Made by a program: the position numbers and the translations under genes. A DNA stretch of 57,391 nt from positions 1 through 57,391 of the forward strand of contig MNXA01000017.1 in assembly GCA_001871195.1 (NCBI GenBank), in the 5' to 3' direction. The notes under the pieces are model-generated. The model was not told the origin of the DNA. It made no database searches and saw only the letters and a list, made by a program, of their open reading frames with translations. Source of the stretch: Zetaproteobacteria bacterium CG1_02_55_237. GTDB taxonomy: Bacteria; Pseudomonadota; Zetaproteobacteria; Mariprofundales; Mariprofundaceae. How positions within the stretch are numbered: position 1 is the stretch's first letter; each line of letters begins with the position of its first letter. Of the stretch, positions 17,028 to 22,657 are shown in pieces.

Positions 17028-18173
17028 TCAGGGCCGCAACATCACCCAAAATTCCCGCAACAAAATAATTGCCGCAGTGCTTATCTGTCGCATGCGTTTA
17101 CCCCAAAAACCACCTGTCGCGGAAGGGTCGGCATCCACCTGTTGGCGCACAGCAGCACTCGGCAAGATGGTTTCCTTCCAGAAAGCCATGCGGTGCAAGA
17201 AATCCGGCTGCATACGGGCAAACACGCGCTCGGCCAGAAACGGAACTGTCTCATGCTGCATAAATCGCCGGAATATCTGCTTCTCCCGCCAATCCATATC
17301 CGGACGCAAGCTATCAAGCAGGGATGCCGGAACGGGCGCTCCAAGATGAGCGTCGACATAGCTCAAGGCATAATAACAGGGGCGCTGCAGGGCATAGGTT
17401 TCAATCCCGCCCTGCACCGCAGGCCATGCTTCAGCCTGCCCGATGCGACGGGCCAGAAGCGCAATATCCCAAAGCCAGATAAGACCCTCGAAGGAATGCT
17501 TCATGGCATGAAAGCTTAGATAGGGAAGCAGCAGCGCCTCATCCACATGCAGGGCATCAACCCCCAACAGAGAACCACGCCGCGAGTGCCGGAAAAAATC
17601 ATCGGCACGCAATGGCGTGAGCAGCGCCCATGACGCGATGCGCTCAATGCCCAGCGGCTCGATATGCACATCCAGCATGACCTCACCACGGAAAAATAAT
17701 AGAGAATAACCGAGAATCAGGGAAAAACCCGCACTTACAAGCAGATCGACAACCTGCTGCGCATCCTTCTCAAGCATCAACACATCGATGTCTGTCTGCG
17801 GACGCAAGGTTGCCGGCGTATACAACACATCGGCAACGGCCTGCCCGCGCAACATAATCACATCGACATCCGCATCGGCAAACAAAGCTAACACCTCAGC
17901 TGCCACTGCCCTGAGCATCAGCGTATGCGCCATCTGCCCGCGCAGCGGCTGTTCGATGCATTGCGCCCTGATCGCCGCATCAAGACTAATATCCTGCTGT
18001 TGCAGCGTGTGCCAGACACAAGCACCCACACCTTCGCGCCAGGCCTGCTCCCAGAAAGCCTTATCTGACAGGAAATCATCTGCCTGCAACTGCATAATAT
18101 CCCCACCCAACAGGCGCGCATATTGCGCCCTCAAAAAAGCGCCGTCAGATTCAGCATTCGCATGATTTAGCAT
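17028..18173 (-). CDS. Nucleotidyltransferase-family protein of the peptide locus
   Basis: Product of 381 residues resembling the uncharacterised nucleotidyltransferase family PF14907. The core DVDVIMLRGQAVADVLY followed by LRPQTDIDVLMLEKD and MLDVHIEPLG gives the acidic residues expected of a pol-beta-like fold (DIDVL and a later DVH). Homologues are common beside PqqD-like and HPr-kinase-like genes in lasso-peptide and other modified-peptide loci. It is divergent from the first small peptide gene with 57 bases between the starts, so both may share a control region. Possible roles are nucleotidylation of the peptide or of a carrier; none is proven. Confidence 0.75.
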   Translation of the reverse strand: MLNHANAESDGAFLRAQYARLLGGDIMQLQADDFLSDKAFWEQAWREGVGACVWHTLQQQDISLDAAIRAQCIEQPLRGQMAHTLMLRAVAAEVLALFADADVDVIMLRGQAVADVLYTPATLRPQTDIDVLMLEKDAQQVVDLLVSAGFSLILGYSLLFFRGEVMLDVHIEPLGIERIASWALLTPLRADDFFRHSRRGSLLGVDALHVDEALLLPYLSFHAMKHSFEGLIWLWDIALLARRIGQAEAWPAVQGGIETYALQRPCYYALSYVDAHLGAPVPASLLDSLRPDMDWREKQIFRRFMQHETVPFLAERVFARMQPDFLHRMAFWKETILPSAAVRQQVDADPSATGGFWGKRMRQISTAAIILLREFWVMLRP

Positions 18174-18230
18174 CAGCGCCTATATTAGGGCATAGGATGA
18201 AGGAATCCATCGGCTAAAAGAGAGGTTGCA

Positions 18231-18512
18231 ATGAGCAAAGAAATTAAATCACACAAGGAAGACCCTGCCTCGCAAACCCGTCGTCGCCTGCTCAAGCTCG
18301 GTGCCTATGTCCCGCCAGCGATTATCGGCATGGCCATTATCAGCGGTCTGCCCGGCACTTCACATGCAAAACAAACAGTAACCAATCAGGGCTCCTGCAA
18401 GCCATCAGCCTGCAGGCCCTGCGTTACATTGGCAACCAGCCCACAACTGACGGCTAAAGAATTGAAAAAACTTCAGGGACAATGCTTAACAGCACAGAAA
18501 ACCTTCAAGTAA
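18231..18512 (+). CDS. Small Cys-rich peptide with Tat-type leader, candidate precursor 1
   Basis: A 93-residue protein. Residues about 17-46 form a twin-arginine-like signal: TRRRLLK, then a hydrophobic LGAYVPPAIIGMAIISG and a possible signal peptidase site after SHA (position 46). The mature part holds SCKPSACRPC and one further cysteine (GQC) near the end. AGAGGT lies 6 bases before the ATG. It is paralogous to the next gene: both share LLKLGAYVPPAI, PGT, and GSCKPxACxPC. It lies in line with radical SAM, PqqD-like and HPr-kinase-like genes, so I infer it is a substrate of those enzymes. Alternative: a small exported metal- or electron-carrying protein needing maturation. Confidence 0.75.
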   Translation: MSKEIKSHKEDPASQTRRRLLKLGAYVPPAIIGMAIISGLPGTSHAKQTVTNQGSCKPSACRPCVTLATSPQLTAKELKKLQGQCLTAQKTFK

Positions 18513-18651
18513 ATTTACTCAGGGTATAATCCGAAATATCTGCATCCATCTTCCCCTGCGGTCAATTAACCACCGGTAATCCATCCGCTTTGCATCTCAA
18601 GCCCACAGCCCAATCAATCCATATTGAGACTTTATCTCACCAGGACTAGGG

Positions 18652-18687
18652 TTGAGCGATGCATGGGGGCACATTGCGGTCTATAAT
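18652..18687 (+). promoter_or_regulatory. Weak promoter candidate before peptide gene 2
   Basis: TATAAT (18682-18687) lies 34 bases before the ATG of the second peptide. TTGAGC (18652-18657) is the nearest -35-like sequence but the 24-base spacing is too long, so if real the promoter may be activator dependent. A second TATAAT at 18525-18530 just after the first peptide gene is equally uncertain. The 209-base gap between the two peptide genes otherwise shows nothing clear. Confidence 0.25.
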
Positions 18688-18721
18688 CATGTAGCTGGAG
18701 CAGCCTGGCAGGGAGTAAGCT

Positions 18722-19009
18722 ATGACGGAAAAGAACCTTACAAACGTGATCAACAAAGATGTCATCGCAAGCATGGAAGATACTGTCTCGCGGTCCCGTC
18801 GCCACCTGCTCAAGCTTGGCGCCTATGTACCACCAGCCATCGTCGGCATGGCCTTCATCAGCAGCATGCCCGGTACGGCGAACGCCGGGAGCGCTGGCTC
18901 ATGCAAGCCAACAGCCTGCAAGCCTTGCATGAGTGGCGGCAAGAAAAGTGATGCTGAAAAAAATAAGGACCGTGTGGATTGCGCGATCTCGCAACGACAA
19001 AGGGAATAG
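18722..19009 (+). CDS. Small Cys-rich peptide with Tat-type leader, candidate precursor 2
   Basis: A 95-residue paralogue of the preceding small gene. It has SRRHLLK, the core LLKLGAYVPPAIVGMAFISS, a possible cleavage site after ANA, then GSCKPTACKPC and a later cysteine (VDCA). The C-terminal tail is rich in Lys, Glu and Gln and is not conserved with peptide 1. GGGAG lies 6 bases before the ATG. The duplication is visible in DNA as well, especially over the leader core and the Cys motif. It is followed 78 bases later by the radical SAM gene. As with peptide 1, the role as modification substrate is inferred from context. Confidence 0.78.
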   Translation: MTEKNLTNVINKDVIASMEDTVSRSRRHLLKLGAYVPPAIVGMAFISSMPGTANAGSAGSCKPTACKPCMSGGKKSDAEKNKDRVDCAISQRQRE

Positions 19010-19087
19010 CAGAAGAATGCTCGTCTATGCCTTGAATAAGACTGCCTGAAAATTAATCCCCCCTGCGTATCAATACCTTAATCACCC

Positions 19088-20326
19088 TTGCCTGCTGAAT
19101 TCATACCACAGAGTGCACCTGATCGCGCACCACAAATCCTGCACCTGCCGGATGGTGGCTTAGTGCTATGCGAGCAGCTTGGTGGGCAGATTGGCCTCAC
19201 TCATATGCACAGCGGTGCAAGCATCACGCTTAGCGGGGTGTTTGCCGAACGCCTGTGCAGGCATCTTGATGCCCCTGAGGACACCCCCTTTCCGGCGCTG
19301 GGACCACTAAGCCGCCAACATCCATGGTTGGAACAGATGCAATCTGTTGCCCCGAATCCTTCAAACCTGTTGCTCGGTGATGGCTTGGGTATGCTGTTCA
19401 TCGAACTGACCGATCGCTGCAATGAAAGCTGCCTTCACTGCTATGCCGAATCTGCTCCGGAGCGCTCGGCCCGCCTGAGTCATGAAGAAATTCAACGCGT
19501 GCTGGAGGAGGCGCTCAAGTTGGGCGACCCTGCCGTGCAATTCACCGGCGGTGACCCCCTGCTGCATCCTGATTTATGCTTTGCCGTGCAAACGGCACGC
19601 GAGCTGGGCTATCAGATGCTGGAGATATATACCAACGGGCTGGCTCTTGGCGAGGCGCTGCTTGCACAACTTCTTCCGCATCAGCCTTCCTTCGCCTTTT
19701 CTGTCTATTCCCATGAGGCCGCAGTGCACGATGCCATCACCCGAACACCGGGCAGCCTGATGCGCACCTTAAAAGCCATGCGCCGCGTGCAGGCTGCAGG
19801 ACTGCCTCTGCGCGTCGGCATGATTCTGATGGCCGAGAACCGGGGTATGGAGGAAGCCACATTCGCTTTCCTGCAGGCGGAACTTGGGCTGGATGCAACC
19901 CAGTTCGGTACCGATGTGGTTCGTTCAACCGGCCGCGGTGAATTCATGCGCAACAATCAGCCAGACAACTCACGCCTGCAACGTTTCCGTCATCGAGTAG
20001 ATACACCGCAAGAAGACACCTCTGCCCCTTCGGAAGAAGACGAGGGAAATCCAGTGCGCCAGGGCAAGCTGTGCATCAGTGCCAGCGGCGATGTCTTCCC
20101 CTGTATTTTCTCGCGACGCACAACACTGGGCAATATCCGCAAGCAGTCCCTAAGCGATATACTGGGATCGCTGGAGCAGCGCACCTTATCCGCACCGTCG
20201 ACAGAACGCTGGCAGCAATGCCGGGAGAGTTTAAGCTGCAGCGATTGTCAGGCCATTGCCTATCTGTTGCAGGATGCCGGGCGAATCATTCCCATCAAAC
20301 AGGGAGGTACGCATGTCGCTACCTGA
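19088..20326 (+). CDS. Radical SAM/SPASM peptide-maturase-like enzyme
   Basis: Product of about 412 residues. A 100-residue N-terminal region without assigned domain precedes the radical SAM core, whose 4Fe-4S cluster motif is C111, C115 and C118 (TDRCNESCLHCY), followed by FTGGDPLLHPD. The C-terminal SPASM region has C329, C339, C378, C384 and C387 (GKLCISASGDVFPC, then CRESLSCSDC), expected to hold auxiliary clusters. Such enzymes modify peptides or small proteins, for example with thioether or C-C links. No ATG is available: a stop precedes at 19079-19081, and the first usable start is TTG 19088 without a clear Shine-Dalgarno, so expression may be low. It overlaps the PqqD-like gene by 14 bases. 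Confidence 0.88.
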   Translation: MPAEFIPQSAPDRAPQILHLPDGGLVLCEQLGGQIGLTHMHSGASITLSGVFAERLCRHLDAPEDTPFPALGPLSRQHPWLEQMQSVAPNPSNLLLGDGLGMLFIELTDRCNESCLHCYAESAPERSARLSHEEIQRVLEEALKLGDPAVQFTGGDPLLHPDLCFAVQTARELGYQMLEIYTNGLALGEALLAQLLPHQPSFAFSVYSHEAAVHDAITRTPGSLMRTLKAMRRVQAAGLPLRVGMILMAENRGMEEATFAFLQAELGLDATQFGTDVVRSTGRGEFMRNNQPDNSRLQRFRHRVDTPQEDTSAPSEEDEGNPVRQGKLCISASGDVFPCIFSRRTTLGNIRKQSLSDILGSLEQRTLSAPSTERWQQCRESLSCSDCQAIAYLLQDAGRIIPIKQGGTHVAT

Positions 20327-20618
20327 ACTACCGGAAAAGGTTGGCAACCTGATCGGTGAAGAACTGGAAGGCCTGAATGAGATGATCTATGTCCGTCCGG
20401 AGGATGGGGCCAGCTTCTCCCTGAACATGACTGCCGCCAGCATTCTTGAATTATGCGACGGAAAGCGCAGTCGTGTTGAAATCGCCCGCTTGCTGGCCGA
20501 TGCCCTGCCGGCTGGAACAGCTCCCGATCAGGCAAAAATCAGCGACGATGTCGATGCCATACTGGCAAACTTTGTCGACTACGGTCTGATTTATGCCGAT
20601 GCCGAAGCCCCCGACTGA
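20313..20618 (+). CDS. PqqD-family peptide chaperone (RiPP recognition element)
   Basis: Product of 101 residues with the PqqD-type winged helix: MIYVRPEDGASFSLNMTAASILELCDGKRSRVEIARLL, then a helix and the NFVDYGLI end. PqqD-like proteins bind leader peptides and present them to the modifying enzyme. ATG 20313 has GGGAGGT 5 bases upstream; an open extension upstream lies within the radical SAM gene. It overlaps the radical SAM gene before it and the kinase-like gene after it, fitting a single operon. Close in type to the PqqD proteins of systems with HPr-kinase-related proteins. Confidence 0.88.
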   Translation: MSLPELPEKVGNLIGEELEGLNEMIYVRPEDGASFSLNMTAASILELCDGKRSRVEIARLLADALPAGTAPDQAKISDDVDAILANFVDYGLIYADAEAPD

Positions 20619-21495
20619 GAAACGCCAGAAACCACCTTTCATGCTATCCATCACGCTGAACATCGCGCACCTGCGCGTTCGTATCCATTGCACTGAATCA
20701 GGCTGTAGCAAGGGTATCGAGGCACTTACCGCGCTGTATGAGCACAGCGAAGATGCAGACGGTGCAGACCTTTGCTTTACCATCAAGTCCTCCGCCGATG
20801 GCATAGCGCTTGCCTGCGATGGCGAATATATCTGGACGGGGAAAGAGGCTGGCGAGGTAGTCGCAGCCTTCGAATGGGCCTTCTACAACCACACCATTGC
20901 CATGCTTTATCCAGCCTTTGTCTCATTGCATGCCGCCACCGTAAGCTGGCAGGGGCACGGCATCACTATTGCCGGCACATCAGGGGCCGGTAAATCCAGC
21001 CTGTGCACTGCCGCGCTGCTGCACGGCGCCGACTATTTCAGCGATGAATATTCACTGCTCGATAAGAAGGGATACATCACACCCTTTCCACGTCCGTTGC
21101 AATGGGACAACAACGATCATCCGGCTTTCTCACGACAAGACATGCATGACTCCGGGCTGTTTGGCGAAGGAAGCTACGCATTCACCGGCCACGATGGGCA
21201 ACCCGTCACCTCCCTGCTCTGGCATCCAAGGCATCTGGGCATAGCGCCGACGAAGATGTCCCTGCTGATCCTGCCACGTTTCGATGCATCGATTGCTGCA
21301 GTCCAAGTCGAGCATGTGCTGCGCAGTCAGGCACTGATGGAACTGGCGGAGGAAATGCATCACAAACTGCCGGTGCAGGAACGCCTGCGCGAACTGCATC
21401 ATCGCATCCCCGAAACCACTCGATTTGTGCGCATCATCTTCCCGGATGTGCATCAGGCATGGAAGCAGGTGGAGCAACTGCTGACGAAAGGCTGA
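20593..21495 (+). CDS. HPr-kinase-related protein (HprK-like)
   Basis: Product of up to 300 residues related to the P-loop C-terminal domain of HPr kinase/phosphorylase. It has the Walker A motif GTSGAGKSSL (about 128-137), an upstream YPAFVSLHAATVSWQGHG and downstream HGADYFSDEYSLLD, as in HprK-related kinase A proteins associated with PqqD-like and nucleotidyltransferase genes. In paeninodin-type lasso peptide loci such kinases phosphorylate the peptide; a similar role here is inference. The start is uncertain: ATG 20593 overlaps pqqD by 26 bases, ATG 20641 is an alternative. It ends 7 bases from the convergent transporter gene. Confidence 0.82.
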   Translation: MPMPKPPTEKRQKPPFMLSITLNIAHLRVRIHCTESGCSKGIEALTALYEHSEDADGADLCFTIKSSADGIALACDGEYIWTGKEAGEVVAAFEWAFYNHTIAMLYPAFVSLHAATVSWQGHGITIAGTSGAGKSSLCTAALLHGADYFSDEYSLLDKKGYITPFPRPLQWDNNDHPAFSRQDMHDSGLFGEGSYAFTGHDGQPVTSLLWHPRHLGIAPTKMSLLILPRFDASIAAVQVEHVLRSQALMELAEEMHHKLPVQERLRELHHRIPETTRFVRIIFPDVHQAWKQVEQLLTKG

Positions 21496-21502
21496 ACCTG
21501 TA

Positions 21503-22657
21503 TTACCGACCAGGTAGCCCTTGGCGTGGCAATTGCAGACTCGCCCCGATACCCAGCAGAGCTAACACCGCGCAGACAAAAAAGGCGGATGAGAAATCAG
21601 CCGCACCATTGCCCTGCGTGGCAATCCAGCCGCAACCCATGATACCGATGGCCGTTCCCAAGCCGAAACCGGTAGCAGAATACCAGCCCTGTGCACTGGC
21701 CCGTCGGTGACTTGGTGCCAGTCGCTGCACCCAGGTGACGGCATTGATATGAAAGGCGGCGAAGCTTGCCGCATGCAACAGCTGTAACAGCAACAGCCAG
21801 ATCAGAGCGGTTGTCAGACCCATCCCCAGCCAGCGTAGCGCCGCCAGCAGCAGGCAGGCAGAAAGCAACAGTGCGGGTGCAGCTGCGGCCACCGGACGGG
21901 AATAGCGCCACATCAAAACAATCTCGGCCAGCACACCAAGCACCCAGAACGCGCCAACCTGCCAACCGGAATAGCCGGCCTGCAACAGATAAAGGCTGAA
22001 AAATCCGTAGTAGGCGCCATGTGAGGCCTGCATGATAAAACCGACCAACAGCAACCATTTCAGACTATGTTGCATCCCGCCGAGATGTCCTGCCTGCTCC
22101 TCGGCCTCTATCGAGCGATCGGGAAAACCAATGGCCGATATGGCCGTCACAAGCATCAGCACCGCTAGCCAATAAGGGAAGGCCAAAGATGCGTTATCGG
22201 CCAACCACAAGCCACCGAGCAGGGATGCGGCAACAAAACCAATGGAACCCCAGACACGCAATTTCCCATAATCGATCAGCGCCGCTTCCGACACAGCAAC
22301 CGATAACCCATCGGCCAGTGGCAGAACTGCCGCCCAAAGGCAGCCAAAGGCCAACACCAGTACAGCCAGCATCCAGTCAGACGAAGCCCATGGAAACATG
22401 CAAGCCAGCACGCCGGCGGCCAGCGATGCAAACAGGATGAAACGCGCCGGGCGTGGGTGAGCATCAAGCGCATGCCCGGCAATGGGTGGAGCCAACACCT
22501 TGGCAATGGACAACAGGCCGGTAAACAAGCCGATGGCTGCAACATCCATACCCCGGCCTGCCAAATACACCGGAAAAAACGGCAGCACGATGCCCAAGGC
22601 TGCGAAATAGGCGGCGTAGAACAGGCGGATATGATGCAGAGAGGCATGTGAAACCAT
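21503..22657 (-). CDS. MFS transporter, HcaT/phenylpropionate-permease-like
   Basis: Product of 384 residues with about 12 membrane segments. The N-terminal YAAYFAALGIVLPFFPVYLAGRGMDVAAIGLFTG and the cytoplasmic LRVWGSIGFVAASLLGG are typical of the MFS_1-like family named after the 3-phenylpropionate transporter HcaT. Substrate cannot be inferred, since family members occur widely without aromatic catabolism genes. It converges on the HPr-kinase-like gene with a 7-base gap; whether it belongs to the peptide locus as an exporter is open, and the opposite direction argues against. It is divergent from the beta-propeller lipoprotein gene with 62 bases between starts. Confidence 0.8.
   Translation of the reverse strand: MVSHASLHHIRLFYAAYFAALGIVLPFFPVYLAGRGMDVAAIGLFTGLLSIAKVLAPPIAGHALDAHPRPARFILFASLAAGVLACMFPWASSDWMLAVLVLAFGCLWAAVLPLADGLSVAVSEAALIDYGKLRVWGSIGFVAASLLGGLWLADNASLAFPYWLAVLMLVTAISAIGFPDRSIEAEEQAGHLGGMQHSLKWLLLVGFIMQASHGAYYGFFSLYLLQAGYSGWQVGAFWVLGVLAEIVLMWRYSRPVAAAAPALLLSACLLLAALRWLGMGLTTALIWLLLLQLLHAASFAAFHINAVTWVQRLAPSHRRASAQGWYSATGFGLGTAIGIMGCGWIATQGNGAADFSSAFFVCAVLALLGIGASLQLPRQGLPGR

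Follow-up and report, generated by a model that had tools for sequence, protein, structure and literature searches.

A candidate RiPP cassette in Zetaproteobacteria pairing Cys-x-Pro peptides carrying Tat-type leaders with radical SAM, PqqD, HprK-like and nucleotidyltransferase proteins

What do a radical SAM enzyme, a PqqD-type protein, an HprK-like kinase and a nucleotidyltransferase do beside two short Cys-rich peptides? These genes lie between positions 17028 and 21495 of the window (the whole stretch of 57,391 nucleotides that was analysed), which belongs to an assembly of 2.33 Mb. An earlier note had picked them out as neighbours at one locus; on rereading, all of the genes are open and intact, and family matches were found for the enzymes and the PqqD-type protein. 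The locus has the make-up of a RiPP cluster, with short precursors, a conserved leader joined to a variable core and adjoining modifying enzymes, and modification of the peptides is predicted. The reading to which we assign a probability of about 0.75 is that the cassette is a RiPP pathway, in which the PqqD, radical SAM, HprK and nucleotidyltransferase (NTase) proteins act on Cys-x-Pro peptides whose product would be exported by Tat.

The NTase gene (17028–18173, minus strand), recognised as PF14907-type by a Pfam match, is divergent from the peptide genes; all the others are on the plus strand in the order peptide 1, peptide 2, radical SAM/SPASM, PqqD and HprK-like. Precursor peptide 1 (93 aa, 18231–18512), called from its open reading frame and conserved position, is followed by its tandem paralogue, precursor peptide 2 (95 aa, 18722–19009), and by the radical SAM/SPASM peptide maturase (412 aa, 19088–20326), identified from Pfam, profile and model evidence, for which the TTG at 19088 is the sole common start codon. 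The gene for the PqqD-type leader-binding protein, a stand-alone RRE of family PF05402 (20313–20618), shares 14 nt with the maturase gene, in keeping with the earlier description of the plus-strand genes as overlapping or closely spaced, and the HprK/PEPCK-fold kinase, assigned on fold and conserved residues, occupies 20593–21495. M17 (20641) is the more likely start of the kinase than the first ATG at 20593: alignments with homologues begin at about residue 13–27 or later, and residues 1–16 (20593–20640), which are not conserved among homologues, are poorly modelled. In the stretch that separates the peptides from the radical SAM gene no terminator was found on the plus strand, and promoter-like sites did not rise above chance. 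An MFS_1_like transporter gene (21503–22657, minus strand) is convergent with the kinase gene; it was dropped as a cassette member, being a conserved neighbour in just 9 of 26 loci and missing in Ghiorsea.

The two peptides, rightly described as paralogous, are 48% identical. At the DNA level a repeat search between them returned a 128-nt leader block (75%) and a 33-nt GSCKPxACxPC block (88%), as expected if selection had acted on the leader and the core motif. The twin-arginine-type leaders, RRRLLKLGAYVPPAIIGMAIISGLPGTSHA in peptide 1 (18279–18368) and RRHLLKLGAYVPPAIVGMAFISSMPGTANA in peptide 2 (18797–18886), follow the consensus xRRxLLKxxxYxPPAxLGxM...A. The arginine pair is present in 38/38 aligned precursors, a count that is partly circular, since RR and Y-x-x-P belonged to the motif with which some of the precursors were collected; both are likewise present in precursors retrieved by BLAST searches that used just the window peptides as queries. 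An A-x-A type site was located by eye some 25–30 residues beyond the RR motif, and is weaker (VMG, ALG) in the class B precursors described below. Judged by motifs, the features of a Tat substrate are all there, namely the twin-arginine motif, a hydrophobic stretch and the A-x-A type site. Putative Tat export of the product, already suggested in the earlier note, is supported by the invariant RR, the later A-x-A type site and the TatC encoded in the genome.

The cores fall into four classes, with Cys-x-Pro units common to all. Class A, found in the window's genus and two other genera, consists of GSCxPSACxPC followed by a variable charged tail; the window holds this conserved motif as GSCKPSACRPC, with two C-x-P units, in peptide 1 (18390–18422) and as GSCKPTACKPC in peptide 2 (18896–18928). 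Class B, from Ghiorsea and others, has 13–15 Cys around NACCPC, class C has the core SCAPCFCAPCGRSGEKN, and class D, as defined on six loci (L054, L056, L057, L058 and L060 of Myxococcota and L059 of Planctomycetales), has CNPNxCNP-type repeats. A fifth variant, SCSPNCCAPAG, occurs in genome G007. The cores contain 106 C-x-P units against 34.9 expected, with none of 2000 shuffles as high, and the enrichment also holds in each core class separately. The peptides matched no Pfam, NCBIfam or PHROGs family (PHROGs gave nothing specific) and stand outside every curated family, and the equivalog matches listed for the enzymes are far below cut-off.

Within Zetaproteobacteria the cassette was found in Mariprofundaceae, Ghiorsea and others. 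Strong radical SAM matches (>400 bits) occur in 37 of 78 genomes of the order, and the leader peptide profile (E <1e-6) hits the identical 37 and none of the remainder; HprK was found in those 37 and, as a contig-edge fragment, in G065. Fisher's test for co-occurrence gives p 4e-23, with counts that are not independent, as the genomes are related. The cassette is near-universal within several genera, and one genus (g9) lacks the radical SAM, peptide and HprK genes in all sampled genomes. In a phylum-wide sample of 398 genomes that includes the 78, none of the roughly 320 other Pseudomonadota has the peptide. A single further radical SAM match outside the order lies in a distant locus of another kind (locus L174, contig C78 of G098, a genome of another family) and was set aside, having two tandem radical SAMs without PqqD, HprK or NTase matches. 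A variant form of the cassette is present in Myxococcota and on one Planctomycetales contig.

The same gene order recurs in about 30 loci. Where the contig is long enough, Zetaproteobacterial loci have a divergent NTase, one or two peptides, radical SAM, PqqD and HprK, G037 and G074 being the exceptions; the suggested search for co-occurrence of the leader with the other genes likewise found PqqD, HprK and NTase in every such locus, bar two split-locus genomes. The peptide slot is nearly always the open reading frame directly 5' of the radical SAM gene and divergent from the NTase. Apparent orphan peptides in G007 and G076 lie at contig ends adjoining an NTase, the orphan in G037 is part of a second locus with the NTase still there, and in G074 a satellite (L169, C1:78500-82500), separated from the main cassette by about 20 kb, combines an NTase with a class B peptide and an additional PqqD but has no radical SAM. 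The arrangement is more than chance, because the gene set is conserved across 12 genera of Zetaproteobacteria at about 40–70% maturase identity. Peptides occurring without the enzymes, or a radical SAM clustering elsewhere with another substrate, had been named as observations that would speak against a common pathway; neither was encountered in the genomes and loci compared.

This linkage also bears on the idea that the peptides are plain Tat-exported metal binders, with the enzymes serving some other substrate such as a small-molecule cofactor. Twin-arginine leaders and many free Cys would by themselves fit periplasmic metal binding, but none of the 78 genomes has the peptide in the absence of the enzymes, the slot of the peptide is nearly constant, the core classes follow the maturase clades, the PqqD family binds leader peptides and the closest solved maturases have peptide substrates; we regard this idea as unlikely. 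In the tree of radical SAM sequences, classes A, C and D each form one clade, and the core-class labels need 5 changes, the smallest possible number, compared with 18.9 on shuffling.

The maturase matches PF04055 with 72 bits and the SPASM family with 34.5 bits (cut-off 21.5). Its CxxxCxxC motif, formed by C111, C115 and C118 as the earlier note had it, is invariant in 21 homologues. The SPASM cysteines that were also claimed hold in part: the family match stands, but only five C-terminal Cys are conserved (C329, C339, C378, C384 and C387), so the domain is reduced from the full seven-Cys form, which suggests a single auxiliary cluster. The protein models as a CteB/SkfB/SuiB-like RiPP maturase (pLDDT 82, with CteB, SkfB and SuiB the best structure matches), and a profile search agrees, with a 70-bit match to SkfB over a stretch including the SPASM part. 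Among the matches listed no NCBIfam equivalog for a maturase exceeds its cut-off, and plasmid homologues comprise only generic radical SAM matches below 36%. The N-terminal domain has secondary structure suggestive of an RRE; a fused RRE was not adopted because profile comparison with PqqD by hhalign gave a probability of 1.7. A viperin-like defence protein was likewise discarded, as the PADLOC pVip matches do not extend beyond the radical SAM core and the remainder misfits.

PqqD proteins are known binders of leader peptides. The PqqD of the cassette matches PF05402 with 41 bits (cut-off 23.4), and its recognition element is present and kept in the extended loci. The kinase is predicted to adopt a PEPCK/HprK fold (pLDDT 94) and conserves H113, the Walker A motif GTSGAGKSS and D151-E152, which places it in the HprK/PEPCK superfamily; two Myxococcota kinases and the Planctomycetales kinase retain the His and the P-loop. 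With 14.8 of 240 bits to TIGR00679 and 15.9 of 33.3 bits to PF07475, it falls outside bacterial HPr kinase/phosphatase. The NTase matches PF14907 with 106 bits (cut-off 31.2) and has the invariant residues R109-G110, D128-x-D130 and D168-x-H170. None of the solved sequences matches the kinase or NTase profiles.

The earlier note had likened the locus to HprK-related systems, and one could take it for a cassette of the HPr-rel-A type (HprK-related kinase A, PqqD and NTase) to which a radical SAM gene was added. The kinase does match TIGR04352 (E 4e-19), and the cassette includes an NTase of PF14907; yet the kinase scores 68.7 bits against a cut-off of 200, and PqqD scores 16.6 against 35 for TIGR04353. 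Since neither protein reaches its family cut-off, the analogy is reduced to distant kinship, and an HPr-rel-A cassette is a very improbable account of the locus.

A RiPP pathway could run as follows. As expected from its family, PqqD would bind the leader at RRxLLKxxxYxPPA and provide the radical SAM/SPASM enzyme with the core; this enzyme, to judge by its closest solved relatives, would most likely join core Cys to neighbouring residues by thioethers. If paeninodin and pseudomycoidin are a guide, the HprK-like kinase may then phosphorylate a core Ser/Thr; the precursors lack the uniform C-terminal Ser of paeninodin, and the phosphorylation site is not obvious. The NTase could subsequently attach a glycosyl or nucleotidyl group, as in pseudomycoidin. 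The folded product would leave via Tat, with signal peptidase cleaving at the A-x-A site.

In most relatives outside the window's genus an ATP-grasp ligase gene lies convergent to and just 3' of HprK (for example L033:8381-9535, L027:8496-9680 and L029:8408-9598, all on the minus strand). Strong matches to this ligase occur in 23 of 78 genomes, all of them cassette-bearing if G065 is counted through the HprK fragment on its ATP-grasp contig, and two have the ligase on another contig. It is missing from the window's genus and looks like an optional tailoring step. Three Acidobacteriota loci encode a different short peptide of the YRKPEFRxERVFETxALSCGK type (L094:4022-4306, L082:3903-4364, L100:6998-7291) along with PqqD, radical SAM and NTase, and in L094 HprK too; they look like a separate, related RiPP system.

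Where the product acts is a further point. A sactipeptide or ranthipeptide bacteriocin cluster, making a thioether-bridged antimicrobial that HprK and NTase would tailor, is improbable: the maturase resembles SkfB, CteB and SuiB and the cores are variable and Cys-rich, yet the leader is Tat-type, no ABC exporter, C39 peptidase or immunity family was recognised among the neighbours common to the loci, and the genes are present almost throughout some genera but in none of the sampled members of another, while bacteriocins are patchy. A housekeeping periplasmic role is favoured over that of a bacteriocin because the genes are so widely and stably present within genera, and because no exporter, peptidase or immunity genes were recognised in the compared neighbourhoods. 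The product of the RiPP pathway probably acts in the periplasm, for instance as a metal-binding or redox peptide, a role suggested by Cys content and distribution.

A broader proposal, put forward tentatively and at somewhat less than even odds, is that the cassette represents a new RiPP class: a Tat-exported peptide in which the radical SAM enzyme crosslinks repeated Cys-x-Pro units and the kinase and NTase (joined by the ATP-grasp ligase in many relatives) attach a further phosphate-linked group, giving a periplasmic metal or redox peptide of iron oxidisers. Radical SAM, kinase, nucleotidyltransferase and sometimes ATP-grasp enzymes acting on one peptide with a Tat-type leader would be a rare union; the open-access literature searched does not describe the gene combination, and no RiPP work on Zetaproteobacteria surfaced in the searches. 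If correct, folded, crosslinked RiPPs would be able to use Tat, the uncharacterised HprK-like and PF14907 enzymes would gain substrates, and there would be a concrete candidate for the way in which iron oxidisers deal, on their cell surface, with metals or redox stress.

Several known systems share parts of this design. Sactipeptide and ranthipeptide maturation (SkfB and CteB, with SuiB for streptide) also employs a radical SAM/SPASM enzyme on a ribosomal precursor, a feature found here, whereas the cassette has a stand-alone PqqD, a five-Cys C-terminal domain and a twin-arginine leader, adds HprK and NTase, and shows no exporter or peptidase. HPr-rel-A systems (TIGR04352/TIGR04353) likewise combine an HprK-related kinase with a PqqD-type protein, but both cassette proteins are far under the curated cut-offs, and the radical SAM enzyme and Cys-x-Pro peptides are additional. 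In the biogenesis of the quinohemoprotein amine dehydrogenase small subunit, the SPASM enzyme QhpD introduces several thioethers into the Cys-rich peptide QhpC, which ends in the periplasm. The proposed pathway similarly has a SPASM enzyme and a Cys-rich peptide reaching the periplasm, although no QhpD model is among the matches listed and no dehydrogenase subunits were recognised in the cassette. The pseudomycoidin and paeninodin lasso loci encode an HPr-kinase homologue and a nucleotidyltransferase by the precursor, the kinase acting before the NTase (PMC8498205). In contrast to these phosphorylated or phosphoglycosylated lasso peptides, the cassette has a radical SAM enzyme and neither a lasso cyclase or protease nor a uniform C-terminal Ser. 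Bufferins are MNIO-modified, Cys-rich RiPPs for which copper chelation has been reported; their Cys-containing precursors have a cleavable signal peptide, which may contribute to the sequence that is recognised (PMC12452194). They rely on a Sec signal and MNIO, whereas the cassette has a Tat-type signal with radical SAM, PqqD, HprK and NTase; bufferins, being RiPPs that contain Cys and are made from precursors with a signal peptide, can by analogy be considered its nearest functional counterpart.
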